From positions 1 to 43,739 of the forward strand of contig CAMWNI010000016.1 in the NCBI GenBank assembly GCA_947175545.1: a DNA stretch of 43,739 bases, given 5' to 3'. Below are positions 12,644 to 31,567 of this stretch, piece by piece. This DNA is from an uncultured Porphyromonadaceae bacterium (GTDB lineage: Bacteria; Bacteroidota; Bacteroidia; Bacteroidales; Muribaculaceae). A program made the position numbers and the translations under genes. Numbering within the stretch: the stretch's first letter is position 1; each line of letters opens with the position of its first letter. The notes under the pieces are model-generated. The model saw nothing but the letters and a program-made list of their open reading frames with translations, had not been told where the DNA came from and did not search any database.

Positions 12644-14113
12644 TTATAAATCCGGGAAGGTTGGAGCGTTCACATTGAACACTCCGTTGGCTATTGACAT
12701 GGCCACAATCCCTGCCGATTGCATAAAAGATGTTTTTCCTTGGGTAAACCTAAATGTTGGAATGCTACGCTTTGGTGCAACAATAGCCGACAATTCCGCC
12801 GGATATGTTGTCAGGGTAAAATCAATCATATTGAAGTGGATTTTCCCGAACCGCAATAGTGATTTTAACCCAAGGTTACATTCGTAATCGCTTGCAAGAG
12901 GGTTTAATTCGGTATTAACGGTGATGTGTGGGATAACGACTTCGTTCCCCCCAATGCCAACCCGCACATTCGGCAGGCGGTAACATTCCAAAATCCTGAC
13001 TCCCCCGATACCGGCCATACGGACCGTATCCGGCTGCGCGTTCGCAAGAACATAATCCTTGTTGTCATTAAAAAAATCGCCGTTCAATGACCCGAACGAT
13101 GCATCACCTGTATCTATGCAAATCTGCATTCGCTGATTGTGTATTTTCCCATTTGTTATCAGATTCATTTGAGGCGAAAAATACATATTGGCGGTGGCTC
13201 CACTTCTTGACGGAGCAATGGAAGGTACGGTTATCTGACGTTTAGCGAAATCAATAGTAAGGTCATTCAGGCGAAGCATAAGGTCGCTGCCTAACACAAT
13301 GCTGAAACAATCAATGTACTGGTTTGCTTCTTCATTATCCAGAGTGAGGTCAACAATAAGAAACGGAACATCCCGGATTACAATATTTCCGACTTTTAAT
13401 TCTTTCGCTATTGCTAATTGCCCGTTGCGGCGACCGATACCTAACACTGAATTTCCGGCGTTAATCGGAATGAGGTCATACTGGCGGGCCAACGAATCAG
13501 AAATTATATTGACCCCTGCGCCGGTGTCGAAAGATATTGTGGCACTTTTGCCATTGATGCTGCTACCGTCAAGTTGCATTAAAAATGCTTCTTTTTCTGG
13601 ATTCCCAACTTGAACAATGTCGAAAGGGATGCAGCCTTCAGAATCAGAGAATGAAATATCATAGGGATTATATGCCGACAATGCAGTATACTGGTCGATA
13701 TAGCGTTGCATACCCGATATTGCCGCACTGTCAAGATATTGCTTTGTGGCATCAAGAACAGATGTGACCACCTCTGCCGCTTTTGCATTGTTTCCCACCT
13801 TGCTCAAGTCCATTGACAGCATGACGGAAGAGTTGAGCAGATTGCCTAAATCGAGATTCGCAGAGTGATTATTCAGTAATTCGCCGAATGCCGGGATTGA
13901 AATATCAGGTCGGTTCAGGCGATTACCGATAAGCGCACGCGAATAGACTTCAAGAAAAGGCATTATGGAGTCCTTGGGCGCTGCATTGTAAATGGAATCC
14001 AATGCAATCCAATCGCCGGTATTCATGGCCTTGGCAAGACGTTCGTCTATTGATTGTGCGCCACAGTTCAAACCAAAGATAGCGATTATTACGGAGAGAA
14101 ATATATTTCGCAT
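12644..14113 (-). CDS. Secreted retropepsin-like aspartyl protease, two lobes
   Basis: 489 residues with a signal peptide (about 1-19). Residues 25-140 are helical. Two retropepsin-like lobes follow. Lobe 1 has SFDTGAG (DTG 196-198), a GIG flap-like turn and the late IVLGSDLM strand. Lobe 2 has CIDTGDA (DTG 334-336), GIGG and NLGLKSLL. Most bacterial retropepsin-like proteins carry one DTG and dimerise; this one carries two in tandem, as in pepsin. Likely periplasmic or surface-exposed peptidase. It has its own -7 box, and a stem-loop region separates it from the surface-protein operon upstream. Confidence 0.75.
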   Translation of the reverse strand: MRNIFLSVIIAIFGLNCGAQSIDERLAKAMNTGDWIALDSIYNAAPKDSIMPFLEVYSRALIGNRLNRPDISIPAFGELLNNHSANLDLGNLLNSSVMLSMDLSKVGNNAKAAEVVTSVLDATKQYLDSAAISGMQRYIDQYTALSAYNPYDISFSDSEGCIPFDIVQVGNPEKEAFLMQLDGSSINGKSATISFDTGAGVNIISDSLARQYDLIPINAGNSVLGIGRRNGQLAIAKELKVGNIVIRDVPFLIVDLTLDNEEANQYIDCFSIVLGSDLMLRLNDLTIDFAKRQITVPSIAPSRSGATANMYFSPQMNLITNGKIHNQRMQICIDTGDASFGSLNGDFFNDNKDYVLANAQPDTVRMAGIGGVRILECYRLPNVRVGIGGNEVVIPHITVNTELNPLASDYECNLGLKSLLRFGKIHFNMIDFTLTTYPAELSAIVAPKRSIPTFRFTQGKTSFMQSAGIVAMSIANGVFNVNAPTFPDL

Positions 14114-14133
14114 AGCAGTTACAAGTTTTAGCG

Positions 14134-14141
14134 CAAAATTA
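14134..14141 (-). promoter_or_regulatory. -7 element for the aspartyl protease
   Basis: TAATTTTG on the minus strand, 20 nt before the ATG at 14113; no clear -33 element. Confidence 0.5.
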
Positions 14142-14250
14142 ACGATAAATCTCGAATATTCCTAATTTTAGACAATAACTATAAATCTGTAATCTTCACA
14201 AAAGTTTTTACTGGCAATTTAGTTTCCCTGGCCTGGGGTTTGACTTCTCA

Positions 14251-14269
14251 GAGACGGCAAATCCGTCTC
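14251..14269. other. Small perfect hairpin
   Basis: GAGACGG (14251-14257), loop CAAAT, CCGTCTC (14263-14269). It lies between the main stem-loop at 14301 and the protease promoter. No T-run follows on either strand, so its role is unclear. Confidence 0.4.
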
Positions 14270-14300
14270 AATCACAACATCAAAACCACTCCAATGTAGT

Positions 14301-14335
14301 GGAGGCTGTCTAACATCCAGCGTTAGACAGCCTCC
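14301..14335 (-). terminator. Strong stem-loop ending the surface-protein operon
   Basis: GGAGGCTGTCTAAC (14301-14314) and its perfect complement (14322-14335) enclose a 7-nt loop. It begins about 20 nt after the stop of the B-repeat protein gene. The T-run (ATTTTTT) lies on the plus-strand side, so on the minus strand it is a hairpin without a U-tract. I still read it as the operon end. Confidence 0.6.
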
Positions 14336-14356
14336 TACTTATTTTTTAAGGATTAT

Positions 14357-16612: not shown

Positions 16613-16633
16613 TTACTTGTTTGAGTTTTATTC

Positions 16634-19600
16634 TTAACGTACTGCGATTTTGTGATATGTATATTCACCGTTGCTGTTGACTATAACCACATAAACGCCG
16701 TTTGTCAAGGTTGAAATTCTGATTCCTGATTCCGAAACGTGGGTTTCGTGAATGAGCTTCTGACCATTAGTATCGTAGATTTCAACAAGGCGGATTTGGT
16801 CGGATGAAACACCCTTGATGCGAAGCATATCACCGTCAACAGAAACCTTTATGTTGCCGTTATACTTCACATCAGCAATGCCACTCCGGTTGTTGATTGT
16901 AATTGCGTACGGATTGAAGATGTCGCCGACAATAGTCTCGCTGAATTTCAACGAAGCATTGTTATCGAAGCGTGTTTTACCGTCCGCATCGGTCACATGG
17001 AATGTAATCCGGTCATTGACGTTACCATAAACGTTCATCATGACAAGACCTTTGACCACACGACCGATACCGCGACATTCACTTCCGCAGAATGCTGCCA
17101 CCTGATAATCCTCATTGTCCAGAGTAGAGCCATCGGCATTGTTGATGATCGCAACCACAGGCATAATCGTTCCGTACTTGTGAATATCAAGTACAAGCGG
17201 AGAATTAGCCGAGATTCCCGGAGCATACTTGGCATAAGCAGTCGATACGATTGAGGTGTTATAAACAACCTTCTTAGCCGACTGGCTCTGATACATATAG
17301 CCCATACCGGGAGACATGGTTTCGAGCGAACCAATCCAATTCTCGCCATCGAACTGTGCGAAACCATTCTGACCAACTACGACATCGAGTGTCTCAGCGT
17401 TGGTGGTTGCGAACGCTTCGTCAACCGACATTGTCTGACTCACTGGATAGCCGAGCCAGTTCCAACCGGAATTGAGAGCAATCGGAGTGGCGGGGTTCCA
17501 TGCAATGTCGCTCAGGCGCTGACGGGCAGTGGCCGCTGTTGTCTCGACCTTGTAGCTCTCAGATGCCACGAGTTCGGTGAGAGTTCCAATCATACCAAGT
17601 TGCGGGTCTCGGATTACTTCCTGAGTCTGGCTCATCATACGGGAGATTCCCTCATCAGCGGCGAGGTCGGCAGGGGCAATTGCACTTTCGAAATTGTGCG
17701 ACATCCAAGTCCAGCCTTCGGGCATCTGGAAGTCCATATCCGAACGTTTCAATGTGTAGTTGAACTCTACTGTTTCTGAAATGTCGTCATCACCGTTTCC
17801 GACACTTGTCATCGCAAGAATCCTTGTGTCATCGTTGATAACGATAGGCACGGTGTACTTACGGCGGGTTCCGTTTTCATCGCAGGGACACGATCCGTCA
17901 GTGGTGAAATAGATAGTGGCGTTCTTCGATTCAGAAGTCAGTTCCACCTTGGTACCACGATAAACGGCAGTGCCGCTTGCACGTGACGACTTCGGAGCTT
18001 CAGCAGTAATAATCTCAGTTACTACATCAACAGCACATTCGCCGGTAGCGGTTACGTCATCAATCGTGAATGTCAGCTGAGCGCGTCCGGGAAGGTCGCC
18101 CTTCACGGTTACTACAGCCTTACCATCCTCATCAAGAGTTGCCTCGGTTATATCAATCGAAGCAATGAGGTCAGAGGAATTAGCGATATGGAGTGTGCGA
18201 CCTACCGCAGCTTCATAAGGCATTGCATATACAGTCACTTCCTTTTCTCCACCGTACAGCACTTTCACGTCGTCGGCATACACAATCTGAACCTCTTTCT
18301 CTACGTCAAGAACCTGACTGAAAGTCTCGGTCATAGGTATTCCGGCGTAAGAAAGTACATTGCGGCTTACGGTTACACGGATTTCACCGGTTGTCGCACT
18401 CAGTTTCTCTTCCGGCACAAAACGTACACGTGAAGCATAGCGTGTGGCATCCGCATCATCTTCGCTTGCGTATTCATCTGCGAGAGCAGAGTCAATAAGG
18501 CGGATTTCGCCGTTGAGTTTCTCGCCATTGGCAGTTACATAGATATTGTCGGTTGTGAGAGTTGACAAATCCATGAACTTGTCGAACTGGACCTCGACAC
18601 CTTCCTCATATGCGCGAGCCTCGGTTACCTCGGGCTGCTTGTTCTGAACAATGCCGATGTTGACTTCAAGTTGAGGCGGAGGCACAGGCAACCATTCGCT
18701 ATAGGCGGTAACATATCCATCCTTCTCGAATTTCACCTGCCACAGACCTTGGGGAACGTCCCATTGATACATACCATGTTCATCTGTAAAGAGTGGGTTC
18801 TTCTGGGCATATTCTTCGGCATCCCAAAGAACGATTTCCTCGTACGGGTCACCATACATATCCTCTTTAGTCTCCTTATAATAGATAGAGGCCTGAACAC
18901 CCTCTATACGATTAGTCGGAACTGCTTCATATACATAGCCTGAAGGGTCAATTGACACCTCAGAATCTTTATTGGGGAATTCCTTTTTAGGTTTGTCTGT
19001 TTTCTCTTTCTCCTTTTCTTTCTTCTTGCAATCAGAATAAGATTTTTTTATTTTATTATTGAGATCGATATATTTCTGCGAAATTTCTGAATTTTTTGAT
19101 GGCCCCCAAGTGTTAAATTTATCTCCTATACTTGTGAAATCAGTAAACTCTGGGTTTACAATTGTCTCAACTGTGTTTGAAAGAGCCGTAAACCAACTTT
19201 CGGCGCAGAATCTAAGAGCATTACCTAATGCTTCACGCCTTTGTGTATTACTATTCTTAATGGGAATATGATATTTCCAATAAGTGGCATTTTTAGAATT
19301 TTTCATAAATTTACCAGCCGTGGAAAGTCCCTCAAACGCTTTACCAATTCCTTTGGTTGCTAATCCAATGGTAAGATCATAACCTAAAGACCACAACACT
19401 CTTTCTTTGTATAAATTGAGATATGAGAAATAATCGTTTTGAAAATTATCAGCTTCGGATTCGATCTGCTCCCTTAGTTTTATAAAATTCAACATTTGCT
19501 CAGATGTCAATCTATAATCTCCATTTGAACACTTAACATATAACGACTTTGAAATGACATCTCGCCATTGCAAATCCGCATCAATGTAATTATCTAACAT

Positions 19601-22600
19601 ATCACACCATGTAGAAAATACAGGAACTTGACAATACTTGCTTATTCCGGCTAAATCGAGGATAAAGCCTCCAACGTCACCTACTAAGCCATAATTATTC
19701 ATTGCCGCCTTAAATCCTTGCTTAAACTCTGAACGAAGTAATTTCAATGCAGCATGGAGGGTTTTCCCATTTACGCTAGGAGCGCGCATTGCTTTTGTCT
19801 GAGAAGAAATCTCTGTATTTACGGTTAATTCCATTGCATATTCCTCGCCAGTATCAATTATGCTTACAAAGATACCTTCTTCAGTCAAAGATTCATGATA
19901 ACAATAATACCCGTTATCAGTCTTACAAAATGTATACTGTGTTTCAGAAAGTTTCTGCTTTGCATCTTGATAATCAACTACACGGATATCAACAAATAGA
20001 CTTTCTTCTTCATCAATTGGATTGATAATAAACGATAATCTGTTATCTTCATCAATGATGAAATTTGGCTCCGTAGTTACAGTTTCTATTTTATCACGTA
20101 GCATTTCGGCTCCACAAGCCAAATCGTCAAGTTGAACCATTTCCGCTTTAGAAATGTCAATTGTTTCATCCGGTAACGTTATGTAGTCTACCAGAACATT
20201 GACAGGAACATCGCTTGAACTTCCTTCATCTCCAAAGTGAGCTGTAGAAATCCATATATCTGCATTTCTATCATATATAGCAGGCAAAGTATAGTAATTA
20301 TTTTCTAATGTTTTAACTACCAGATTAACGTCCATTACTTTATCTATGGATTCAGGAGAAAACTTCGTGACAAATGTAAATTGGTTATTGCTTGGCTCAA
20401 AAGTATAGTAACCGGGATCTGTTGGATTCTCAAAATCAAATTTAATTGATGTTGGAGAAACCATAGAGACACTTAAAACCTTTGTATTATTAGGATTATA
20501 TGTGACAGTAGCATATGAACTACTTATTGAGACATTCTCTTGAGTCGTTATATTGGCACAGATAGGATATGCAATATAAGGAAGCGGGTCATTGAGTTCA
20601 CATTGCACTTTATATTCACCTTTTCCATTTGCGACCCCGCTTCCAATACTGGTATCACCATTGTAAATTGAAACTTTAGCGAATGCAGGAGCGTCTCCTC
20701 TTACCACAAAATTGTATTGGGAAACAGTCACTGGAGCTATAATGGCTAAATCAGAAACAGACGCAATTGCAGAACCTATCGGTTGATAAATGACATTACC
20801 AGCATATTCAAAAGAAACAGCAGCTGTAATATTATGTATACCTCCATACTTAGGTATAACGCAGAAGCGGGTTTGGCTCTGGTAATTGTTGCCAAGTTGG
20901 ACTGTCAAACGGTTGTTGTCGAGAGTATATGGCAACAAATTTGGACCTTGGATTACCGACTGTTCTACAAAGTCACAGGCTTCAGGGAGGTCAACGATAA
21001 GGGCGACATTGCTGATGTCGTTCTTGTATACACCCTTGAAGTCGATGGCTGAGCGAAGTGTCAGATAATTGCCGGTGGTGATGCTGCTCTTGTTTGATGA
21101 GAAACTTGTTGAGGAATTTGTGTAGTAGAACAAGCTTTCATCAAACGCGGGTACTTCCGAGATTTTAACCTCAGCGAGTTTGCCGGTCTCGACCTTAACA
21201 GTATTCTTTACATAGTCCTTGCCTTCGGTTAGACCGATTTCGGCAAAGTTTGTCAGGCGAAGTATTGAATTCATCAGGTCTGACTGACCCATTGAAACGA
21301 GGGTATAGTCGCCGTCTTCCAACTCGGTGAATGTTGCTTTGGCCTCGGAATAGGTCATCTTTTTGAGCAATTCGCCCTTGCCGGAATAGAGCATAGCTAT
21401 AACCGCAGGGTTGTCTGTCATCTCAAACGACGCATAGATTCCACCTTTGCCGACAATATCGAAGGTAACTTCGGCACGTTGATTGTCACCAACGGTTATG
21501 GTTTCAACAATTGGGTTGAATGCGCCGGTCTTGGATGTTGCTGTCAGTTGAAGTTCATCGCCCACGTTGATATTCTCATCAAGCACGGCGAGAATCGGGT
21601 ACTGGAGCGAAACCTCTTTATGCGCGCGGTTTTGAGTGACGTTAAAGACACTGATGGCCACATTCTGATAGTCGGAGTAGTAATCCTGCACTTCTGCAGA
21701 ACCGGCGGCATGATATGTGAACCCGTATGAAACACGTGCGCCAACAATAGATTTCATCGTAGTCTTGCCCAAGTCAAGTGTATTGACATCTGCTGCAAAC
21801 GCACCGATTGTATCGTTTACGTTTACACACTCAGTCGCAGCGTAAGTCAGACGGGTTTCAGGTGCGTCAAGGACAGATAAATTCCACTGACCTTTGCGGT
21901 CGGTCTTTGCAGTGTAGGTCTTGGAATATTTGCCATTAAGTGTTTGGTTAACAGAAACTGATGCGCCCGACAAAGCCGAGCCATCTCCATCAACAACAGA
22001 ACCTGAAAGTTCTACATGGCGGAATGGTACGAGGCTGATTGTGCAAGTATTATTGTCAGTTCCGACGGTAAACTCTACATCATCAGGATTCGCATAAACC
22101 ACGCCGAGTTTATTGTCAAGAGTAACACGGCATATGAGTTGCTGTCCGTCAGGAATCTCGCCAAGCGAAACTGCCTTGCGGAGATAAGTTGTAGTTCCGT
22201 CGGCAAGCGGTTTAAGCCATTCAACGGCTACCTGAGAGGTAACGTCTGAGCCATCAGATGCTAAGACCTTTGCAAAGACAGTGTGCAGCGATTTGAGATT
22301 ATCGAAAGTAACCTCGATGTCTTGATCCGGGATAACAACATTCTCGATGCGACCGATTTCAAGACCTGCCTGAGAGAACAGATATATGTTATACTGCTCA
22401 TCTTTTTGCAAGCCATTGAACGTATAGAGCATACGGTCGGAGATCACATACTTCTGACGAACACCGGAATTGATGTTTACAATTTCAAGTGAATTATGCT
22501 TATAGCGACCGTCAGAGGCATCTGCCGGCAGATTAACTTGAAGCACATGGGCGTCATTTGTAATAGGCAAGATAGTGAAGTCTTTCCAGTAATCTGCATT

Positions 22601-24556
22601 TGAGTAAAGTTCAATCGCAGAAGCCGGCACATACACCGTACAGTTTGCCTTGTTGGTAAATCCGCTGAATGTATATGAATTACAAGTTGGTGGTTCTTGT
22701 GCATAAACAGTAAGTGAAGCCAGATTTTCACAATAACGGAATACATAGTTGCCAAAACTTGAAATTGTCGATGGCAGAACTATACTTGATGCACCAACCG
22801 AGGCGAATGTATATCCGGGTAAGACGGATACACCGCCGGTTCTGGATATATCAATTGTTCCGGCATTACTGAGGTTGCTAAGATTGCCTAAATCATTTGA
22901 GGTAAGCTCACCCTTAACAATCAGACTGCTGATGTTCGGGAAATTATCATATCCGACTAAGTTACGTAACGCATCATATAGATATCCGGGAGTAAAGTCA
23001 TCTATGATTACTTGACCGGTTGTCGGATTATAGTAATTTGCACCGGGATTTGACGGAGAAGATGGATTATAACTAAAATAAGCGACAATGTCGAGTGCTT
23101 TTTCGCCCATTGTTACACTAATGGGCGATGTTGTCGACTGCAGGTTTTCGCCATTTATTGCCCATCCGGTCAAATGCCATCCGGTATTTGGATAAGCATA
23201 AATCTGACGTGAAGCATTTTCCTCCATGTCAAATGCCCCTGAAGGACTCAATGATGCTACCCCTGAGGGGATGGCGCGAACAACGACAGGATGCTTGACT
23301 TTCTGTTCCTCCGGACTTGGATTGCCGGGAGATGCAGGATTGTATGAATAATTTGCTACAATTGTAACATCATATTCAGGCATCACATAATAGAAAGACG
23401 TTGATCTGGATACTTCCTCGCCTTCTATTGTCCAATTCAGGAATTCAAACCCTGTATTATTATATGTGTAAACACGGGTTTGAACACCTGCTTTCAGTTC
23501 ATACGAATTTGCATATGCTTCACCTGCGCCTGAGGGATTTGTAACAACAGTAAGTTTATACGTCTTTTCTTGAGTTTCGCCTGTTCCGGTCCCCGGATTA
23601 CCGGGAGACTCTGGATCGTAGCCTTCTCCGATTCCATGACGGGTACAAGTATATGTTGATGTTACAATCCGGCTCGTATTGCCGTTAGCATCAGCGGCAA
23701 CAGCTTTGAATGTTGTGGTGGCGGATATAACTATGGGACCATTGTATTTATACTGTTCATCTACGGTCGGTGCATATCCGTCCGTACGGTAGTACACGTC
23801 ACAGCCATCTTCAGCAAGAATCTCAACCGAAATAGGAGTCGTGAATGAACAACTCTCAGGCCGAAAAACAGGAGATGCGACTACATTTACATTAGAATTA
23901 GACAGGAAATCAGATGGAGTATTGCCTTCACTATAAATATCGAACCCGATTATATTTAGTTCTCCGGATTCAATATAAAAGACAATATTGTCTTGGTCGT
24001 ACTTGGAATCAGGCTTCCAATAAATGATATTGTTGGCATAGTCAGCCACAATTTGTGTATCACTATAATATAAGGAACCGGTTTCAAAGTCGGCAAAAAC
24101 TGCACGAACCGATGCATTGTTAGTTTTTGTCGGATCCAAGTGAATCTTGATTGCTTCCAATACCGGAGAATCATTGTAGCTTCTAAAGTAGAAGTATGTA
24201 TTAGTGGAATAATTTAATACAGTTTGATTCTCTTCGTAAATTATATTATCCGGTGATTGCCATGACCATACATAATTATCATCTATGTAGATGCCGTAAT
24301 ACTCTGAGTAGGAATCTTCGCTTACAGCATTGCACATCACAGTCCCGGCGATGCCGCTGCCTGAACGGGCAGCGGCCTTTCGGACTGTTGATTTCTTTAA
24401 GGGCGTAATCTTATTGGAACTTACGTCCAGGCGCCCTATCTGCTTACCCAGAGATGAAACCGCTCCGGCCTCGAATTGGCTCATCCCCGCAAGGAGGATG
24501 GCCAATACAAGACAACAAAGAGATCTCGGGAAGCCCGATTTTATTATATTATTCAT
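16634..24556 (-). CDS. Giant (2,640-residue) multidomain T9SS surface protein
   Basis: Signal peptide 1 to about 32. In order: a chitobiase/beta-hexosaminidase C-terminal-like domain (about 228-302), two divergent InlB-type repeats (333-405 and 421-497, linked by PGNP-rich spacers), a short BspA-like LRR block (about 540-670), a carboxypeptidase-regulatory-like Ig fold (near 850), further beta domains, a lysine-rich alpha-helical section (about 1590-1850), an IDPSGYVYEAV module (near 1868), an SbsA-type Ig domain (near 1975), another chitobiase-like domain with STDG-type motif, the FCGSECRGI module (near 2490) and a type-A T9SS sorting tail (about 2560-2640, GVYVVIVNSNGEYTYHKIAV). It should be exported through the outer membrane and displayed. 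Middle gene of the operon, 15 nt after the LRR gene. Confidence 0.8.
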   Translation of the reverse strand: MNNIIKSGFPRSLCCLVLAILLAGMSQFEAGAVSSLGKQIGRLDVSSNKITPLKKSTVRKAAARSGSGIAGTVMCNAVSEDSYSEYYGIYIDDNYVWSWQSPDNIIYEENQTVLNYSTNTYFYFRSYNDSPVLEAIKIHLDPTKTNNASVRAVFADFETGSLYYSDTQIVADYANNIIYWKPDSKYDQDNIVFYIESGELNIIGFDIYSEGNTPSDFLSNSNVNVVASPVFRPESCSFTTPISVEILAEDGCDVYYRTDGYAPTVDEQYKYNGPIVISATTTFKAVAADANGNTSRIVTSTYTCTRHGIGEGYDPESPGNPGTGTGETQEKTYKLTVVTNPSGAGEAYANSYELKAGVQTRVYTYNNTGFEFLNWTIEGEEVSRSTSFYYVMPEYDVTIVANYSYNPASPGNPSPEEQKVKHPVVVRAIPSGVASLSPSGAFDMEENASRQIYAYPNTGWHLTGWAINGENLQSTTSPISVTMGEKALDIVAYFSYNPSSPSNPGANYYNPTTGQVIIDDFTPGYLYDALRNLVGYDNFPNISSLIVKGELTSNDLGNLSNLSNAGTIDISRTGGVSVLPGYTFASVGASSIVLPSTISSFGNYVFRYCENLASLTVYAQEPPTCNSYTFSGFTNKANCTVYVPASAIELYSNADYWKDFTILPITNDAHVLQVNLPADASDGRYKHNSLEIVNINSGVRQKYVISDRMLYTFNGLQKDEQYNIYLFSQAGLEIGRIENVVIPDQDIEVTFDNLKSLHTVFAKVLASDGSDVTSQVAVEWLKPLADGTTTYLRKAVSLGEIPDGQQLICRVTLDNKLGVVYANPDDVEFTVGTDNNTCTISLVPFRHVELSGSVVDGDGSALSGASVSVNQTLNGKYSKTYTAKTDRKGQWNLSVLDAPETRLTYAATECVNVNDTIGAFAADVNTLDLGKTTMKSIVGARVSYGFTYHAAGSAEVQDYYSDYQNVAISVFNVTQNRAHKEVSLQYPILAVLDENINVGDELQLTATSKTGAFNPIVETITVGDNQRAEVTFDIVGKGGIYASFEMTDNPAVIAMLYSGKGELLKKMTYSEAKATFTELEDGDYTLVSMGQSDLMNSILRLTNFAEIGLTEGKDYVKNTVKVETGKLAEVKISEVPAFDESLFYYTNSSTSFSSNKSSITTGNYLTLRSAIDFKGVYKNDISNVALIVDLPEACDFVEQSVIQGPNLLPYTLDNNRLTVQLGNNYQSQTRFCVIPKYGGIHNITAAVSFEYAGNVIYQPIGSAIASVSDLAIIAPVTVSQYNFVVRGDAPAFAKVSIYNGDTSIGSGVANGKGEYKVQCELNDPLPYIAYPICANITTQENVSISSSYATVTYNPNNTKVLSVSMVSPTSIKFDFENPTDPGYYTFEPSNNQFTFVTKFSPESIDKVMDVNLVVKTLENNYYTLPAIYDRNADIWISTAHFGDEGSSSDVPVNVLVDYITLPDETIDISKAEMVQLDDLACGAEMLRDKIETVTTEPNFIIDEDNRLSFIINPIDEEESLFVDIRVVDYQDAKQKLSETQYTFCKTDNGYYCYHESLTEEGIFVSIIDTGEEYAMELTVNTEISSQTKAMRAPSVNGKTLHAALKLLRSEFKQGFKAAMNNYGLVGDVGGFILDLAGISKYCQVPVFSTWCDMLDNYIDADLQWRDVISKSLYVKCSNGDYRLTSEQMLNFIKLREQIESEADNFQNDYFSYLNLYKERVLWSLGYDLTIGLATKGIGKAFEGLSTAGKFMKNSKNATYWKYHIPIKNSNTQRREALGNALRFCAESWFTALSNTVETIVNPEFTDFTSIGDKFNTWGPSKNSEISQKYIDLNNKIKKSYSDCKKKEKEKEKTDKPKKEFPNKDSEVSIDPSGYVYEAVPTNRIEGVQASIYYKETKEDMYGDPYEEIVLWDAEEYAQKNPLFTDEHGMYQWDVPQGLWQVKFEKDGYVTAYSEWLPVPPPQLEVNIGIVQNKQPEVTEARAYEEGVEVQFDKFMDLSTLTTDNIYVTANGEKLNGEIRLIDSALADEYASEDDADATRYASRVRFVPEEKLSATTGEIRVTVSRNVLSYAGIPMTETFSQVLDVEKEVQIVYADDVKVLYGGEKEVTVYAMPYEAAVGRTLHIANSSDLIASIDITEATLDEDGKAVVTVKGDLPGRAQLTFTIDDVTATGECAVDVVTEIITAEAPKSSRASGTAVYRGTKVELTSESKNATIYFTTDGSCPCDENGTRRKYTVPIVINDDTRILAMTSVGNGDDDISETVEFNYTLKRSDMDFQMPEGWTWMSHNFESAIAPADLAADEGISRMMSQTQEVIRDPQLGMIGTLTELVASESYKVETTAATARQRLSDIAWNPATPIALNSGWNWLGYPVSQTMSVDEAFATTNAETLDVVVGQNGFAQFDGENWIGSLETMSPGMGYMYQSQSAKKVVYNTSIVSTAYAKYAPGISANSPLVLDIHKYGTIMPVVAIINNADGSTLDNEDYQVAAFCGSECRGIGRVVKGLVMMNVYGNVNDRITFHVTDADGKTRFDNNASLKFSETIVGDIFNPYAITINNRSGIADVKYNGNIKVSVDGDMLRIKGVSSDQIRLVEIYDTNGQKLIHETHVSESGIRISTLTNGVYVVIVNSNGEYTYHKIAVR

Positions 24557-24571
24557 TTGTCGTATTCAATT

Positions 24572-27500
24572 TTATTTCAGAATTGCTTTGCGAGTTTCCT
24601 TACCATTTGAAATAAGGTAAAGTCCTGCGTTCGGTACATTGATGTCAGAAAGACGACCATTGTAAACCACAACGCCATTGATAGCTGTTACCGTCACATT
24701 TGTATCTTCGCCAAAATCTGCCACAATTGAGTCGATACCCGACTGACCATTGCGTGCAAGCATGAATTGAACTGTAAAGCGAGTGCTATTTTCAGTAGTT
24801 GACGAAGTGAAGCGGTAGGATTCTTTTGTTAGATCAATAGTGATGCCGGTTTCGTTATCGGTAAGCATAACGCTCCATTCATTGCTAAATTTGCCATTTA
24901 GAGCCAATGTATATACGGTTTCTTTTGCAGAACGAATACCGAGGGTTGCAATACCATCATTTACCGGACGCTCGTTAATGCTGTATGTTACATCAGCATT
25001 AACATATATTTGTGCGTGTTCATCACTGCTGGCAAAGAATTTTGATGCGTCGCGGCCAATTTCGTATTCTGTCTTCGCATCAGCATTAAGAACAATACGT
25101 GCGCGGTCTTCATAGTTTTCTCCTGAAAGGACAAAGTTAAAAACATTGCGGTCTTCAGCCGACACTGATTCGCGAGAACGTGCAGCCGCTTTATATAAAG
25201 CCTTGCCCTCATTTGAATGCAGACGTCCGGTTTCTTTAAAGGTCATTTCGGCGGCATCGAGAGGACACTGCACAAAGAAGGCCTCATAGGGAGAAAGCAC
25301 CAGATCATCATCAACCGGAGAATATGCAACATATGAACTTCCATTCCATACTGTAATCGGAGCTGTAAACTCTTCATTCAGATAATGCATGTCAAAATAG
25401 CAAGGATAAGGATTGCCAATCAGATTCCAAGAACGATTATGGGCAAACTCAGCAGGGTATTCTGTCAAGGGTACAATAATGTCGGTCGGTCGGAATAGAT
25501 TGTTTTTGGTAAGAGAGTTGCCGGAAGTAAATGACAATGTCGGGTTGATACTATATCCATTACTGTCATAGCCAACTGAATAAGCGGAAACAATGTATCC
25601 CTTGCCGGCTTCAAGTGTATCATCATTAGTTAAGTTAACCCAGGTTGAGGACGTTTCTCCAGCGGCGCGAGCGGAAGAGTCATATCTACGAATTACCCAA
25701 TAGGTATTGTCGCTTGGTATAATATCCGACACTTTCACATCGTATGGCAACGAAATAAAATGCCACTCTCCGCTGCCATTGTAATTATAGAAAGTAAGGT
25801 TATGTGTAACATTGTCTGCGCGCATCTTATCTGCATAGTTTATCAATGTTGGCATGTATTGATAACTATTGCGTGATCTTCTTGAAAGTTGCCCGGAAAC
25901 TGTCAACTGCCCGGCAGAAAGAGTTCCTTCGCCGGTTGCTGTGAGTTGTCCAATGTAATATTGTGTATTATAATTCCGGTCGCGAGATGTACCTCCATAT
26001 TGTAAATCAATAGTTGGATTATTAGCTACAACTGCATTATCTTCCTCTTCAAGATTTATGGTCAATGGACGATCCACAAGTATATAATCAATCTGGTCGT
26101 CAATCGAACGCATCAAATAGAAATTGCTCCAATATTCAGTATTACGATAGAAATCCTTGGAGAACGGAGGCACATATAGATATGTGCGGGACATATCCAT
26201 ATCGTTTCCAATGAATGATGATTCAGCGGTTGGGGGTACAACTGCGTAGCATTTGAAAGTCTTGATGCCGGAATTATCAAAGGCTCTTGAACCAATATAT
26301 TTTACAGTGGGAGGGATTGTCACTTCCTCTAATGAAGTACATCCGTTAAATGCGTCTGAGTCAATAGTAGAAAGTCCTGTTTCCATTGATACAGAGCGTA
26401 ATGAAGAGCATCCGGAGAAAGCACCAGAACCAATAGCCGTAATTGACGAAGGGATTTCAACGCTTATAAGATTATTGCAGTTTGCAAATACCGAATAATC
26501 AATAGACGTTAGGCTGCCGGGAAGGGAAATACTCTCAATTGCAGTGTTTTCGAAACTCTCGGAATTAAGGGTTAGGAGATCATTTCCAAAGGTTACTTCT
26601 TTGAGGGAGATGCAATTGGCAAAAGAGGATCCTTCCACAGTAACTGCTGATGTAAGGTCAATTGATTCCAGCAAAGAACAACCGCGAAAAGCACCACTGC
26701 CAATAAAAACGACAGTAGATAGATCTATGTTATTCAACTTTGAGCAGTTGCTGAAAGCATTATTGCCAATGGATTGTACACCGGTCAGATTTATATATGA
26801 CAATGAGCGGCATCCATAGAATACGGATGAACCGATTGTAGTAATTCCGTTAAGGTCAAAAGATTGAAGTGCTGAACATTCATAGAATGCAGAGTTACCG
26901 ATGCTTTTCAAGGTTGACGGGAGTTTGACCTCAACTAAAGAAGATCGATTATACAAAAACTGGTCCGGAAGGCTTGATATAGTAGTTTCACTGAGATCAA
27001 GTTTCATCAAAGTGGTGAGATTCTTGATTGCACTTAGGTCAATATCATTGATGTTGCCAACGACCTTTACATACTGGGCAGCTCCCCAATTGTAGTCGTT
27101 TTGAGTAAGATAAGTTTCGGCGAACTCTCCATTCTTTTCTACGTTCACAGTTATCCATTCATAGTCCCAGCCATAAGGTAGAATTGTAGAATCCGAGAAC
27201 CCGTAATTGTTCACATAACTTGCAAGATCTGTTCGGCCGCACACGTATATCTGAGATACTTGAAAACGTCCGGAAACTTCAGGTGCTGTTCCGAGCATAT
27301 ATATTGCATCAAGATAGCGATCGAAGTTATAATTCATGTAAACATAGTTTACAGTAGAGGGTATTGTCAGTGTTTTGATATTTGAGTTAAACCCGTTTCT
27401 TAAGTTGGAATACCCATTTATGCGTGTTACGGGGTATGTATTGTCTCCAACTTTGATGTAGTCTGGTATAGTTACGGCATTTTCAGAAGAATTGATTGCT

Positions 27501-27835
27501 ACAAGGGTTATATAGTCAACTCTATTCTCTTCGCCGGACTCTTCATCATACACCCATTCATAAGCCAGTTCAAACCCCATGTAGGTTCCTTCAGATGTTT
27601 GAGCGACATAGTCCGCATTGCTGAAATAGCTGAAACTTAACCCGGATTCCGAGTAAAGTTGAGCGTCAACCGTTCCGATTGAAACGCCGTAGTTGGGGAC
27701 TTCCTCGTCAGAGGATGTGGCAGATGGTGTTGCTACAGCAGCACTCATCAAACGGCCTTCGCTGTTAGCGGCAAAGGCGAGCGTGCAGCAGACCACTGTC
27801 AAGAACACGCTAAACGTAAGTAACGTTTTTTTCAT
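24572..27835 (-). CDS. BspA-like leucine-rich repeat surface protein
   Basis: 1,087 residues. The signal peptide (1 to about 22) is followed by BspA/TpLRR-type LRR_5 repeats from about 260 to 540 with the recurrent pattern IGSxAFxGCSSLxSVxL. Beta-rich domains follow, and a C-terminal T9SS sorting tail (GLYLISNGKETRKAILK). Such LRR proteins bind host matrix proteins or other bacteria in oral Bacteroidetes; binding here is inference. First gene of the minus-strand operon. Between its ATG and the inverted site at 27885 I see no promoter on the minus strand, so in this orientation it appears silent. Confidence 0.85.
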   Translation of the reverse strand: MKKTLLTFSVFLTVVCCTLAFAANSEGRLMSAAVATPSATSSDEEVPNYGVSIGTVDAQLYSESGLSFSYFSNADYVAQTSEGTYMGFELAYEWVYDEESGEENRVDYITLVAINSSENAVTIPDYIKVGDNTYPVTRINGYSNLRNGFNSNIKTLTIPSTVNYVYMNYNFDRYLDAIYMLGTAPEVSGRFQVSQIYVCGRTDLASYVNNYGFSDSTILPYGWDYEWITVNVEKNGEFAETYLTQNDYNWGAAQYVKVVGNINDIDLSAIKNLTTLMKLDLSETTISSLPDQFLYNRSSLVEVKLPSTLKSIGNSAFYECSALQSFDLNGITTIGSSVFYGCRSLSYINLTGVQSIGNNAFSNCSKLNNIDLSTVVFIGSGAFRGCSLLESIDLTSAVTVEGSSFANCISLKEVTFGNDLLTLNSESFENTAIESISLPGSLTSIDYSVFANCNNLISVEIPSSITAIGSGAFSGCSSLRSVSMETGLSTIDSDAFNGCTSLEEVTIPPTVKYIGSRAFDNSGIKTFKCYAVVPPTAESSFIGNDMDMSRTYLYVPPFSKDFYRNTEYWSNFYLMRSIDDQIDYILVDRPLTINLEEEDNAVVANNPTIDLQYGGTSRDRNYNTQYYIGQLTATGEGTLSAGQLTVSGQLSRRSRNSYQYMPTLINYADKMRADNVTHNLTFYNYNGSGEWHFISLPYDVKVSDIIPSDNTYWVIRRYDSSARAAGETSSTWVNLTNDDTLEAGKGYIVSAYSVGYDSNGYSINPTLSFTSGNSLTKNNLFRPTDIIVPLTEYPAEFAHNRSWNLIGNPYPCYFDMHYLNEEFTAPITVWNGSSYVAYSPVDDDLVLSPYEAFFVQCPLDAAEMTFKETGRLHSNEGKALYKAAARSRESVSAEDRNVFNFVLSGENYEDRARIVLNADAKTEYEIGRDASKFFASSDEHAQIYVNADVTYSINERPVNDGIATLGIRSAKETVYTLALNGKFSNEWSVMLTDNETGITIDLTKESYRFTSSTTENSTRFTVQFMLARNGQSGIDSIVADFGEDTNVTVTAINGVVVYNGRLSDINVPNAGLYLISNGKETRKAILK

Positions 27836-27884
27836 TGTGATGATTTTGATTAGTTTATTATTGTTGATTATTTTGTGCTACATT

Positions 27885-27901
27885 ATCTCTTTGAAAGAGA
27901 T
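27885..27901. repeat. Left inverted site of the putative invertible segment
   Basis: ATCTCTTTGAAAGAGAT, itself a palindrome around G27893. Its reverse complement matches the right site at 16 of 17 positions, including the central base. Confidence 0.7.
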
Positions 27902-28037
27902 TTGGATTTAATCTATTTGATTGATTACCTGATGCTTATTCAACAGTAAATTCGTTTTCCCTAAACAAGTGTAACAGTCACACTTCGTCAGAGGCATTTT
28001 TCAACGTCGTTTTTTATTAAGTTTATAAACTGAAATG

Positions 28038-28068
28038 TCTGATATTAAGAATTATTTTTGTATCTTTG
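28038..28068 (+). promoter_or_regulatory. Promoter inside the invertible segment
   Basis: TATCTTTG at 28061-28068, with TCTG (one mismatch to TTTG) at 28038-28041 and a 19-nt spacer. No CAAAnnTA (a minus-strand -7 box) exists between 27836 and 28081, so this is the only candidate promoter for the operon. Confidence 0.65.
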
Positions 28069-28081
28069 CGCTGTCATAAGC

Positions 28082-28098
28082 CTCTCTTTCAAAGAGAT
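28082..28098. repeat. Right inverted site of the putative invertible segment
   Basis: CTCTCTTTCAAAGAGAT, centred on C28090. In direct orientation it also shares the following TTGGAT with the left site, with only the central base differing across 22 bp. Confidence 0.7.
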
Positions 28099-28126
28099 TT
28101 GGATAATTGTTAAACAAAAAGGCATA

Positions 28127-28195
28127 ATGGATCGGCTCCAACTTTATAGGAGAAGAAATTATATAAGAATTTATACACTTTTGTTGTCATTTTAG
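28127..28195 (+). CDS. Possible 22-codon peptide on the OFF-orientation transcript
   Basis: ATG to TAG (MDRLQLYRRRN...), about 50 nt after the predicted start of the rightward promoter. Basic N-terminus and hydrophobic end. Too short to judge; listed because it would be transcribed only when the promoter points right. Confidence 0.15.
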   Translation: MDRLQLYRRRNYIRIYTLLLSF

Positions 28196-28251
28196 CCTCT
28201 CATTTGTCAAGTTTTTATTATTTAGGGAGTTGGATGGGTTATAAACAATTG

Positions 28252-28285
28252 AAGCCTCAATCTCCAATGGCGGAAACTGAGGCTT
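28252..28285 (-). terminator. Terminator-like hairpin after the recombinase gene
   Basis: AAGCCTCA (28252-28259) pairs with TGAGGCTT (28278-28285). A second hairpin, CTTTGC-ATTAG-GCAAAG, sits at 28301-28317, next to the recombinase stop. Together they may also stop the rightward promoter before it enters the recombinase gene antisense. Confidence 0.5.
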
Positions 28286-28319
28286 ATGCTAAAGGCTTTT
28301 CTTTGCATTAGGCAAAGCG

Positions 28320-29522
28320 CTAAAGCGATGAGAGAATTAGGGAGTTGGCACGGTCAACGACGGAGGTGTCGAGACTGGCGAGGTAGATTTGAGTGGTGGC
28401 TTCCGAATCGTGGCCCATGCCCTCGCTGATAACGCTTAGGGGGATGCCCTTGGCTTTGGCGGCTGAGGCCCAACTGTGGCGGGCAACGTAGAGGGTCAGC
28501 GGGATTGTAACGCCTACTTTCCCTGCTATCTTTTTCAGGTTGTGGTTGATGTTGTAGCCTGCGTTTCGGTAGGTGCATCGTTCGTTGGTACCGGGATTTT
28601 TGATTATTGGCAGCAGGTAATCAGTGCTGTTTTCGGGGTACTTGTCAAGAATCATCTGCATTTCCTTGGTCCATTCTATGATTAGCTGCTGACCTGTCTT
28701 GCGACGGCGATAAGAGACATAGCCGTTTTTGAGGTCTGATTTTCTTAGAAATGCCATATCAATGAAACTCATTCCTCTGAGATAGAAGCTCATCAGAAAC
28801 ATATCGCGGGCAAAGTCCAGCGATGGAGTCAGGAACAGGTCCAACGCCTTGATTTTCTTTATCAATACCAGAGGCAATGCACGCTTCACAGTCTTGTCAA
28901 CACCGGTATAGACGTGACGAAACGGATTGCGGTTCTCGATGACGTCATCTTCGACCGCCCGGTTATAGACCGCCCGGAGTATTCGTGTATAGAATGATAT
29001 GGTGTTGGGTGCGACTCCCCGCGTATGAAGCCATGCCTCATACGCCTCCATTATCTCCGAGGTGAGACTGTCAAGCATTATATCTTCACTCATTCTGAAC
29101 TTTTTGAAACTGTTGAGTGTGGACTTGTAGGTCTCGGAAGTCCTGACCTTGCCGTTCTGTTTTAGCTTGGCAATTATACTCTCCATAAAGTTGAACAGGG
29201 AGTATTCATGAGCATAGCGGTTGAACTCGTCGATTACATCATCGGCAGTATAAATCAGACCGTTTGCATGCAGTTTGCGAATAATCTTCGTTAACCGCTC
29301 CACATCCCAGCGGATGCGCTCGCGGATTGAGAGAATGAACGATTTGCGTTCACTTTTATGGGTGGTGGTCACCATTGAACGCGACTCGTCCCACTCCGAT
29401 GGGAACACTTTGTAATCGGAAAGGAGCTGTCGCACCTTCCTTTCGTGGATAATCTGATAATAGATTGTCCCCTCAATGTCAGCTACAGTCGAGGGTCGGA
29501 ACTTTACTTTTATCGAAGCCAT
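28320..29522 (-). CDS. Tyrosine site-specific recombinase (Bacteroidetes invertase type)
   Basis: 400 residues from the ATG at 29522; the frame extends 13 codons upstream to a weaker TTG start. Arm-binding domain about 1-95, SAM-like core-binding domain about 105-200, catalytic domain 210-400. Catalytic residues: R249 (YLRG), K275 (RRKTGQ), Y345-x2-R348 (LYVARHSW, tyrosine in place of the usual HxxR histidine), H371 (GMGHDS) and nucleophile Y380. Length and motifs match Tsr-type enzymes that invert nearby promoters in Bacteroides. Lying next to a segment bounded by inverted sites, it is the likely invertase. No phage or transfer genes are nearby. Confidence 0.85.
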   Translation of the reverse strand: MASIKVKFRPSTVADIEGTIYYQIIHERKVRQLLSDYKVFPSEWDESRSMVTTTHKSERKSFILSIRERIRWDVERLTKIIRKLHANGLIYTADDVIDEFNRYAHEYSLFNFMESIIAKLKQNGKVRTSETYKSTLNSFKKFRMSEDIMLDSLTSEIMEAYEAWLHTRGVAPNTISFYTRILRAVYNRAVEDDVIENRNPFRHVYTGVDKTVKRALPLVLIKKIKALDLFLTPSLDFARDMFLMSFYLRGMSFIDMAFLRKSDLKNGYVSYRRRKTGQQLIIEWTKEMQMILDKYPENSTDYLLPIIKNPGTNERCTYRNAGYNINHNLKKIAGKVGVTIPLTLYVARHSWASAAKAKGIPLSVISEGMGHDSEATTQIYLASLDTSVVDRANSLILSSL

Positions 29523-29560
29523 TTGTTTTTTGGATGTTTTGATGTGTCTATATCTCATCA

Positions 29561-29779
29561 ATGTCGCAACCCTCCGAACAGACCGGCATATATGATTTCG
29601 CTTTGGCCGTTCAGGAGCATAACAATGCTGAAATCTCGCTACTTGCAGGAAAGCGGGATTCTGACAAAATCGCGCAAAAAGTTGACGAAAACATATTTAC
29701 TGTACCTTTGCCATACACGTCGGTTGAAGAAGGCCTCAGGCGTGTTTTTCAACACATCGACGATAGCACGGCGCAGTAA
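29561..29779 (+). CDS. Small hypothetical protein
   Basis: 72 residues, soluble and mildly acidic (MSQPSEQTGIYDF...). It lies between the divergent recombinase gene and the converging pabA gene, filling a gap that otherwise holds nothing. No family recognised and no clear promoter seen, so it may be spurious or a remnant. Confidence 0.3.
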   Translation: MSQPSEQTGIYDFALAVQEHNNAEISLLAGKRDSDKIAQKVDENIFTVPLPYTSVEEGLRRVFQHIDDSTAQ

Positions 29780-29814
29780 GATAACACGACATGCGGATGG
29801 CCTCAATATTTTAT

Positions 29815-29860
29815 AAGGCCCCGTTCTATGGCATTAACAAATATTGGGGAACGGGGTCTT
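29815..29860. repeat. Palindromic repeat, copy A, and pabA terminator
   Basis: A 12-bp stem (29815-29826 with 29849-29860, one G-U pair) encloses TTAACAAATATTGGG. The core TTAACAAATATYGGGGAAC recurs at 34836. The pabA stop codon (29834-29836) falls inside the loop. On the minus strand the hairpin is followed by CCTTATAAAATATT, so it may also terminate pabA. Confidence 0.55.
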
Positions 29861-30478
29861 GGTCACACGTAAGTGTCGTAGTCTGACCACTTCTGTAAGA
29901 AAATTATGAAGCATGCGATCTCCACTCTCTGTCATGATACTTTCAGGATGAAACTGGAATCCGAAGAGTGGCAGCTCGCGGTGACGCAGTGCCATGACCA
30001 GACCCTCCTCGTCACGTGCCGTTATGAAAAGGGTGGCGGGAAAATTGTCGTCTGACACCACCCAGGAGTGATAGCGCCCTACATGGGTGGGCAGTCCGGC
30101 GCAGAAGCCTGTCAACGGATCGGAGGAATCAATATCAACGAGGCGTGTCACATGGCCGTGCTTCGGATTCTCCATATGTAGCAGCGTGCCGCCGAAATGT
30201 AGCGCGATTGCCTGACATCCGAGACATATTCCAAGCACCGGCATGCGGAGACATTCCGAGTGGCGGATAACTTCCATCAGCTGTCCTGCTTCGTGCGGGA
30301 GTCCGGGGCCGGGAGATAGAATCACGGCGTCAAATGCCTTGAGGTCTCCGCAGTCTATTTCGTCGTTTCTGACGATATGCCAGCGGATTTCCCAGCCGTA
30401 TTTAAGCATGCTCTTCTCAAGCAGGCCGATAATATTGTAGACGAAAGAGTCGTGATTATCTATTATCAGAAGATTCAT
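29834..30478 (-). CDS. pabA: Aminodeoxychorismate synthase glutaminase subunit (PabA/TrpG family)
   Basis: 214 residues, class I glutamine amidotransferase. Nucleophile C85 in GICLGCQA, H177 and E179 in FHPES, and the SPGPG oxyanion region at 55-59 are all present. It supplies ammonia to the chorismate-using partner. It is divergent from a pabB-pabC pair, and the partner carries the PabB-type lysine, so I favour p-aminobenzoate (folate) over tryptophan synthesis; PabA and TrpG cannot be separated on sequence alone, and some are shared. The last codons lie within a palindromic repeat. Confidence 0.85.
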   Translation of the reverse strand: MNLLIIDNHDSFVYNIIGLLEKSMLKYGWEIRWHIVRNDEIDCGDLKAFDAVILSPGPGLPHEAGQLMEVIRHSECLRMPVLGICLGCQAIALHFGGTLLHMENPKHGHVTRLVDIDSSDPLTGFCAGLPTHVGRYHSWVVSDDNFPATLFITARDEEGLVMALRHRELPLFGFQFHPESIMTESGDRMLHNFLTEVVRLRHLRVTKTPFPNIC

Positions 30479-30556
30479 AAAAACATTTTAAACAAGAACT
30501 GTTGTTTTATGGATTGTAAAATTAATGAAGAATTTTCGGACATGCAATCTTATTTG

Positions 30557-30564
30557 TAATTTTG
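30557..30564 (+). promoter_or_regulatory. -7 element for pabB
   Basis: TAATTTTG just 5 nt before the ATG at 30569, so the transcript would be almost leaderless; the -33 element is weak. Confidence 0.45.
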
Positions 30565-30568
30565 CGTC

Positions 30569-31567
30569 ATGAAATGTCAATTGTCTATCATTTCTTTTAC
30601 AGAATTAAAGAAGCGGATGAATGATCTGGGGCGTAGCCGCACCCCTTTCGTATGGGGTGTGGACTATGATCTCCGACGTGGATTTGTTGTTGACAATCCG
30701 CATTCTCCGGACTGCGGGATATTATGGGAGGTGCGTGGCCGTGGTAACTGCCCTGGCAGTCCGCAGCATGCTGAGGAGATTCCGCATATGCGTGTGGTTG
30801 CGTACCCGGAGAGATTTGTCTACGGCAGGATGTTTGACACTGTGATGGCCGGCCTGCGACGCGGTGATTCTTTTCTTGCCAACCTTACGGCCCGCACAGA
30901 GGTTGAGTGTCAGTGTGGCCTGGATACGATATTCCGGAATGCCCATGCTCCTTACAAGCTGCTACTGCCCGATGAGTTTGTCTGTTTCTCTCCAGAGCCG
31001 TTTGTTCGGATTTCAGCGAACAGGATATCCACATACCCGATGAAGGGGACTGCCGATGCGTCATTGCCGGATGCCGAATCTTCTCTAATGGAGAATTACA
31101 AGGAAAAGTGCGAGCATTATACAATTGTAGACCTTATGCGTAACGATTTGAATTCTGTATCGCGAAATGTGACAGTCGAGCGGTTCAGATATCTGGAGCG
31201 AATTGCGACATCGAGGGGAGTGATTTTTCAGACAAGTTCGGAGGTGACCGGCGTGCTTCCGGAGAGCAAAGAGTATGATTTCGGCGATATCATCCTGCCG
31301 ATGTTACCTGCCGGGAGCATCACCGGAGCGCCAAAGGAGGCTACCGTCACTCTGATTGGCCGCGCGGAATGCTCTCCTCGCGGATGGTATACGGGTGTGT
31401 TCGGTTATTTTGATGGCAAAGAGATGGAAAGCGCCGTCATGATTCGTTGCATTCAGCGCGGAGATGACGGGCGGATCTACTTCCACAGCGGAGGCGGCAT
31501 TACAGTCAACAGTAATTGTGAAGAGGAATATGAAGAACTGATTGCCAAAGTATATCTGACAAGATGA
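30569..31567 (+). CDS. pabB: Aminodeoxychorismate synthase component I
   Basis: 332 residues, chorismate-binding enzyme. PMKGT at 157-161 has the lysine (K159) typical of PabB, where TrpE has PIAGT; this assigns it to 4-amino-4-deoxychorismate synthesis. The signature LPAGSITGAPK is at 246-256. It is shorter than E. coli PabB (about 450), consistent with the reduced N-terminal half of many Bacteroidetes proteins. Its stop overlaps the next start (ATGA), so translation with pabC is coupled. Confidence 0.9.
   Translation: MKCQLSIISFTELKKRMNDLGRSRTPFVWGVDYDLRRGFVVDNPHSPDCGILWEVRGRGNCPGSPQHAEEIPHMRVVAYPERFVYGRMFDTVMAGLRRGDSFLANLTARTEVECQCGLDTIFRNAHAPYKLLLPDEFVCFSPEPFVRISANRISTYPMKGTADASLPDAESSLMENYKEKCEHYTIVDLMRNDLNSVSRNVTVERFRYLERIATSRGVIFQTSSEVTGVLPESKEYDFGDIILPMLPAGSITGAPKEATVTLIGRAECSPRGWYTGVFGYFDGKEMESAVMIRCIQRGDDGRIYFHSGGGITVNSNCEEEYEELIAKVYLTR

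Follow-up and report, generated by a model that had tools for sequence, protein, structure and literature searches.

A probable phase-variable promoter switch ahead of a putative surface-protein operon in a Muribaculaceae bacterium, and the site class to which it belongs

The window, a stretch of 43,739 nucleotides from an uncultured Porphyromonadaceae bacterium (family Muribaculaceae in GTDB; assembly GCA_947175545.1, contig CAMWNI010000016.1), contains at positions 27885–28098 what is, with a probability of roughly 0.9 given the comparative sequence evidence, a recombinase-worked phase switch in which a promoter is flipped between two inverted sites. The flipping would be carried out by the recombinase encoded next to the segment, and the products of the genes behind the switch are presumably displayed on the cell surface. 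The invertible promoter had been proposed in an earlier sequence-only reading, and related genomes bear it out: a matched site pair lies beside 41 of 82 orthologous recombinase genes, the cores of paired sites agree in 91 of 92 cases, an exact promoter box is present at one end only in 84 of 91 switches, paralogous loci occur in inverted form and orthologous loci occur in both ON and OFF states. The element belongs to a known kind, the tyrosine-recombinase invertible promoter; the rules found at the level of the family, including a ladder of segment lengths, are apparently new.

The probable switch and the adjacent recombinase

The distal (operon-side) site, ATCTCT-TTGAA-AGAGAT (ATCTCTTTGAAAGAGAT), occupies positions 27885–27901, and the proximal (recombinase-side) site (CTCTCTTTCAAAGAGAT), whose core TTCAA is the distal core inverted, occupies positions 28082–28098; both were located by direct reading and a repeat search. 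Read directly, these 17-bp sequences are identical at 16 of 17 positions once one is inverted, just as the sequence-only reading had it, with the N5 core equal in both (TTGAA/TTCAA), and the repeat search returns a perfect 16-nt inverted repeat (27885–27900 and 28083–28098, spacing 182 nt). The sequence TCTCTTTNAAAGAGA has exactly two copies in the 2.23-Mb genome, both in this switch; when one mismatch is allowed, a single extra place is found (G000:C4:127548), and the reversed-pattern control gives none. The proximal site deviates from its class at the first base, with C instead of A, a type of single-base departure that is common among relatives. The proposed invertible segment, 197 bp from site to site, contains no ORF of at least 80 amino acids, and a SusC/SusD shufflon is thereby ruled out.

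A point absent from the sequence-only reading is that the two sites also match as near-perfect direct repeats (TCTCTTTNAAAGAGATTTGGAT, 21 of 22 positions), because the site core is a near-palindrome, and the polarity of such sites is set by the central core base only. Read in this way, the direct match would have the recombinase cut the 197-bp piece out as a circle instead of inverting it. However, the lone mismatch is precisely the central core base, the cores of relatives match when inverted in 91 of 92 pairs and directly in 1 of 92 (a pairing with a third site), and inverted paralogues exist, all of which makes excision exceedingly improbable.

The promoter of the segment is marked by a −7 box, TATCTTTG (28061–28068, plus strand), which lies 22 bp inside the proximal site and faces the recombinase end, so that the assembled locus is correctly described as OFF for the operon. 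The claim of a single promoter stands as far as place and direction, away from the operon, are concerned, but there are two abutting exact boxes, a second TAnnTTTG (TATTTTTG) adjoining the first on its upstream side. Likewise, the segment contains no exact TAnnTTTG on the minus strand, where no promoter had been seen, although there is one weak box with one mismatch (TACTGTTG) and a TTG 20 nt upstream. A TTG sought 17–24 nt upstream of the box at 28061–28068 was not found. As in Tsr-type systems, then, a promoter lies between the inverted repeats at 27885–28098. Next to the distal site is a TTGGAT extension (27902–27907, plus strand) that matches the non-promoter end of relatives' switches, with a second TTGGAT copy outside the proximal site (28099–28104). 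A leader (27836–27884, minus strand) separates the distal site from the first operon gene, which starts 50 bp from that site, reads outward and would be driven in one orientation. On the other side, a 15-pair stem-loop (28252–28285, minus strand), terminator-like on the recombinase strand, lies between the switch and the recombinase gene; it may also end the transcript of the OFF orientation.

The recombinase gene (28320–29522, minus strand) encodes a tyrosine recombinase of about 400 amino acids, counted from the ATG at 29522, with the domains Arm-DNA-bind_5, Phage_int_SAM_5 and Phage_integrase. The ORF spans 28320–29561 on the minus strand if a TTG start is taken; aligned orthologues suggest that the ATG is the true start. 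The distance from the ORF end to the right site is 221 bp, in agreement with the estimate of about 220 bp made earlier. The ORF is intact, and R262, K288, R361, H384 and Y393, which we take to be the catalytic residues, are invariant in an alignment of six recombinases; a second feature of Tsr-type systems, a tyrosine recombinase encoded beside the segment with its catalytic residues kept, is thus present if these residues have the roles ascribed to them. The domains are those of a Bacteroidales-type tyrosine recombinase, whereas matches to NCBIfam are to general Xer- or integron-like models, far under their cut-offs. Only tyrosine recombinase domains were found, which rules out an Mpi-type serine invertase switch.

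A second recombinase fragment in the same genome, 92% identical and cut at the start of contig C27 (L046:1-404), might also act on the switch at 27885–28098. The genome has a further site, 130 bp from the end of contig C4 (L003:1501-1515), with a TAACTTTG box facing a gene for an EcoRI-type methyltransferase whose reading frame is interrupted in the assembly; this contig end and the C27 fragment may be one broken locus. In IMG/VR, eleven contigs (L307–L317) encode relatives of the recombinase, the closest with 72% identity.

In the proposed mechanism, the adjacent recombinase would bind the ATCTCT half-sites of both inverted sites, and the 197-bp segment would be bent into a short loop that brings the sites together. 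Strand exchange across the 5-nt core, for which a match is required, would then flip the segment together with its promoter. As assembled, the promoter would fire toward the end of the recombinase gene and probably be halted by the stem-loop, leaving the operon OFF; in the inverted state, the −7 box would come to lie about 87 bp before the start codon of the first gene, and three surface genes would be transcribed. A former switch that is now fixed, with the operon permanently OFF or served by an undetected promoter, would account for the C-for-A change in the proximal site, for the lack of a TTG at −33, for the lack of a flipped copy of this locus in the one genome of its species and for the excess of sigma-70-type promoter hits in 14000–30600 (56 compared with 36.3 in shuffled sequence, sd 5.5), a consensus that is not that of Bacteroidetes. 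This is very unlikely, given that the recombinase ORF is intact with invariant catalytic residues, both sites have kept exactly matching cores, the single-base departures recur in relatives and the length of 197 bp falls on a rung of the ladder described below.

Site pairs and inverted loci in related genomes

The comparison covered 11 genomes of the genus and 397 of the family (193 matching at E 1e-90), one genome per species, together with the 80 best named loci, among which L052, L053 and L061 repeat the family-genome loci L131, L132 and L141. A DNA search of the genus with 27700–28320 finds, besides the window itself, five matches of 32–38 bp, which are spread over four genomes and include one at the switch of G003. 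A matched site pair is present within 1.5 kb downstream of 41 of the 82 orthologous recombinase loci and no such pair is found in that range at the other 41; by identity, a pair accompanies 35 of the 58 orthologues that reach 70% and 6 of the 24 that do not. Controls give 0 of 73 upstream and 0 of 82 in shuffled sequence. This count requires equal cores and excludes loci with less than 420 bp of downstream DNA, a cut C-terminus or a near-duplicate. Genome G005 (L044) carries a 21-bp inverted repeat of other sequence beside the orthologue; therefore, not every orthologue uses the ATCTCT-N5-AGAGAT class. For many site pairs, the flanks contain no close orthologue (the larger flanks were mostly chosen away from known orthologues), and these solitary pairs suggest that a recombinase may act on them from a distance.

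In separate searches, the site-pair pattern occurs in 76 of the 397 family genomes, in 5 of 11 genomes, in 63 of 111 (one genus) and in 21 of 49 (a second genus), with none in the reversed control, and in 9 of 393 genomes of a set that includes other families of the order, against 1 of 393 in the reversed control. Three genomes of family f28, outside Muribaculaceae, have several switches of this site class each (G451, six; G658, five; G797, two). Chance origin of the site pairs is rejected by the reversed-pattern, shuffle and upstream controls.

For a tyrosine recombinase to exchange strands, the DNA between its points of cleavage has to match. In pairs of the form TCTCT-N5-AGAGA located 150–260 bp apart, with N5 left free and equal cores not required, 91 of the 92 distinct pairs from bacteria have the same N5 core when one is inverted, compared with 165 of 8372 comparisons between loci (2%). 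The single exception, L233, pairs with a third site and was removed after this test, leaving 91 switches for the later counts. Given the need for matching DNA, matched but otherwise free cores are what active strand exchange would leave behind. In phage contigs, 25 stretches carry the bare pattern; they comprise 17 distinct pairs with matching cores in 6, and the bare motif pair there is mostly due to chance.

A comparison of related genomes for the flipped state, named in the sequence-only reading as a check, finds orthologous loci in the ON and OFF orientations and one inverted paralogue pair. The paralogues are L245 and L246 of genome G203, whose outer flanks align on the same strand (96.5% identity over 1780 bp and 87.5% over 48 bp), whereas the inner 204 bp, which take in both sites, align at 90% only in reverse orientation; judged from this alignment, the two loci are literally inverted. 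For one orthologous locus, L040 and L084 show the ON state and L070 and L089 the OFF state, both flanks being homologous at about 67–80%; the inner segments are too diverged for alignment, and the box of L070 has one mismatch. The first gene in L040 carries sigma-70 region 4 (Pfam; the targets of L084 and L089 are cut by contig ends). Another locus, with a first gene that appears NusG/UpxY-like by eye, has the ON state in L045 and the OFF state in L051 and L097, and its flanks are related on both sides. In G409, two duplicated segments show no flip relative to each other.

Segment lengths and promoter orientation

The lengths of the segments appear to step by about 11.6 bp (174, 186, 197...), the exact period not being settled. 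In 52 homology-reduced switches shorter than 205 bp, many of them from a search limited to 170–200 bp, a period of 11.7 bp fits best (R 0.50, 5e-5 against a uniform null); the reduction removes detectable homology only, so that deeper common ancestry of equal-length switches is possible. In one genus searched at 156–216 bp, the 74 spans among the pairs listed give 11.65 bp (bootstrap 11.1–12.25, R 0.64), and 61 spans, after removal by eye of 13 near-duplicates, give 11.5 bp (R 0.61); the 74 come from 75 listed pairs, with G409:C14:17591, which has a non-matching core and shares a site with its neighbour, left out. With this period and phase held fixed, two further sets land on the same rungs: the second genus, with V 0.61 (p 5e-6) for 28 spans (without the one-strand hit G265:C74), and other families of the order, with V 0.64 (p 5e-6) for 16 spans. 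These 16 are the matching-core distances among those listed, including five of the six places in G451 and excluding the second pair of G776 (non-matching core, shared site) and three in-family pairs. Freely fitted, the periods are 11.35 bp for the second genus and 10.3 bp for the other families. The empty gaps of the ladder were picked after seeing the data, and the set of 91 switches has lengths of 179, 190, 191 and 192 once each. The switch of the window, at 197 bp, is on the 197.3-bp rung.

The ladder would reflect the need for the two sites to be turned toward one another when the segment forms a short loop. Loops in the Hin system were reportedly the subject of work by Haykinson and Johnson in 1993. 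The internal eliminated sequences (IES) of Paramecium are alike in that their lengths step by about one helical turn, which the available text of PMC3464196 reads as end-to-end looping, and unlike in that they represent eukaryotic excision with a period of 10.2 bp, compared with bacterial inversion and about 11.6 bp here. A length ladder in invertible promoters was not evident in the literature searched, most subscription papers lying outside that search.

The position of the promoter is nearly fixed. An exact TAnnTTTG is located 16–29 bp inside a site, mostly at 21–24 bp, in 85 of the 91 switches, and the exact −7 box is at one end only in 84, compared with 2.5% of shuffled segments. ON and OFF were assigned to recombinase-adjacent switches, the solitary ones being left out. 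Among the 40 of these with a clear call, the promoter faces the recombinase in 33, including the switch of the window, and points away in 7; this set keeps near-duplicates (such as L103/L145, which agree at 99%), two tandem pairs contribute both of their switches, and L148, whose orientation was unclear, is uncounted. Tandem switches with different cores lie between the recombinase and the target at L049:2029-2560 and L057:7294-7800. In four of the 33 (L052, L088, L092 and L137), an ORF of 167–168 amino acids starts 18 bp from the recombinase-side site; therefore, 'OFF' at these four applies to the distal gene alone.

The predominance of recombinase-facing promoters, together with the four ORFs for which the present orientation may be ON, would also fit a different arrangement, in which the promoter is functional as it now lies, antisense RNA against the end of the recombinase gene provides feedback on recombinase level and the operon has its own promoter. 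For the window this is very unlikely: the stem-loop stands between the promoter and the recombinase gene, the segment has no exact −7 box directed at the operon, and an OFF bias alone is known in other Bacteroidales switches, of which 4 of 96 are predominantly ON (PMC8748976). An antisense function and switching of the operon could coexist.

A further sequence, TTTGCTAAA, is found with at most one mismatch 31 times at offsets of 70–76 from the non-promoter site in 82 segments, which contain 48 hits in total on that strand and 11 on the other; it might, at a guess, be the site of an accessory protein. The segment in the window has a weak match with two mismatches, identified by eye (27957–27965, plus strand).

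Cargo, fusion proteins and known systems

The first gene behind the switch (24572–27835, minus strand) encodes a 1087-aa BspA-type leucine-rich-repeat (LRR) protein with a signal-peptide-like start, as judged by eye. It is followed by genes for a 2640-aa multidomain protein with a type IX secretion system (T9SS) type A sorting tail (16634–24556, minus strand) and a 751-aa protein with Listeria-Bacteroides (InlB B-) repeats (14357–16612, minus strand). The intergenic gaps are 15 and 21 bp, with only weak terminator-like stems in a terminator scan, and the three genes are probably cotranscribed as one operon. A 14-pair hairpin 21 bp past the last stop codon (14301–14335), listed as terminator-like on the plus strand, is likely to be the operon terminator. 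The description of the locus as a T9SS operon holds for the 2640-aa protein, which scores above the tail model TIGR04183 (29.4 bits, cut-off 23) and slightly under the Pfam cut-off for PF18962 (26.8, cut-off 27), but not for the LRR and B-repeat proteins, which have no hits to T9SS sorting-tail models and have tails that resemble one by eye only. The LRR protein has only distant relatives, with 2 hits in 1 of the 10 other genus genomes; a search of these ten with the protein found no instance of the same operon beside a switch, and a 1086-aa target in L237 is unrelated to it.

The targets of 30 recombinase-adjacent switches are diverse. Pfam detects DUF3575 (3), SrfB (2), DUF4007 (2) and NusG (2), and TerD, kinase, FHA, restriction, radical SAM, autotransporter and sigma domains once each; PADLOC detects SspB (2) and, once each, the type IIG, type I, viperin, PD-T4-6, PbeA and mad6 models. 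Defence-like genes are therefore switched besides surface genes, and anti-phage defence may, on these domain matches, be phase-variable in relatives. Two SrfB genes (L049:2585-5644 and L093:7575-10664) are nearly identical (96%) and lie behind different recombinases and switches, suggesting that cargo may move independently of the switch.

Beside some switches there is a family of fusion proteins of 470–530 amino acids (L242:4818-6410, L241:4869-6314, L231:2961-4376 and loci L342–L431). The N-terminal part is related to recombinases (hhalign 98.2%, E 2.9e-14, 228 columns), and the C-terminal part to NusG/UpxY (NF033644, E 6.6e-8 or better in 3 of 3, under the cut-off). The predicted structure (mean pLDDT 81) has RfaH/NusG as its best match, with a weak match to the Tn1549 integrase (E 0.009). 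In the first fusion sequence, R262 is replaced by N, R361 by T and H384 by K, the stretch with K288 is missing and Y393 lies beyond the alignment; the recombinase-like half appears to be catalytically degenerate. Matches at E 1e-20 occur in 77 of the 397 family genomes, some to one half only. An equal-core site pair is present within 700 bp upstream of 23 of 78 fusion genes, compared with 0 of 26 downstream and 0 of 78 in shuffles; the 78 are those, out of 90 taken from the matches listed, in which the ORF reaches 400 aa and the upstream DNA is long enough, the query's own gene excluded. UpxY genes behind invertible promoters are already described in the accessible part of PMC12632263, so that the recombinase-like half is the distinctive part of the fusion; no literature on a recombinase-like/NusG fusion was evident. 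A tentative and rather doubtful extension of these observations is that the switches form an address-coded family, with a shared half-site, a 5-nt core for each locus that prevents cross-recombination and a length in helical turns fixed by looping, and that the dead-recombinase/NusG-UpxY fusion, driven by some of these switches, perhaps binds the same sites and thereby ties operon read-through to the orientation of the switch.

Among known systems, Tsr19 is alike in having a tyrosine recombinase adjoining a promoter between inverted repeats, a TAnnTTTG box and surface products, and acts both locally and at a distance (PMC4747536, in the text available); the differences lie in the host family, the target operon and, possibly, the site class with a core of its own at each locus. 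Excerpts of PMC8748976 describe invertase genes beside invertible promoters, mostly OFF, and adjacent double switches, and those of PMC11892184 an invertase gene that cannot be transcribed by its invertible promoter; the cargo differs in both, and ATCTCT-N5-AGAGAT may coincide with one of the motifs reported there. The term Muribacul- is absent from the main text of PMC11892184. In the E. coli fimS/FimB system, a tyrosine integrase likewise inverts a promoter for surface structures, within a 314-bp switch (PMC9993118, as far as its consulted portion goes), but that is one switch of one length, in contrast to a family of address-coded sites. No literature on such switches in Muribaculaceae was found in a search that most subscription papers lay outside.

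If the segment is worked as proposed, an operon of giant adhesin-like genes joins those that Bacteroidales can switch at random. Comparative genomics alone reveals rules for these switches: a free core that needs a match, a nearly fixed place for the promoter and steps of about 11.6 bp. The site pattern combined with the demand for equal cores offers a simple way of listing such switches in these genomes. For DNA looping in living gut bacteria, the length ladder would amount to a helical-twist experiment performed by nature, from which one could predict the insertions and deletions that should lock a switch.
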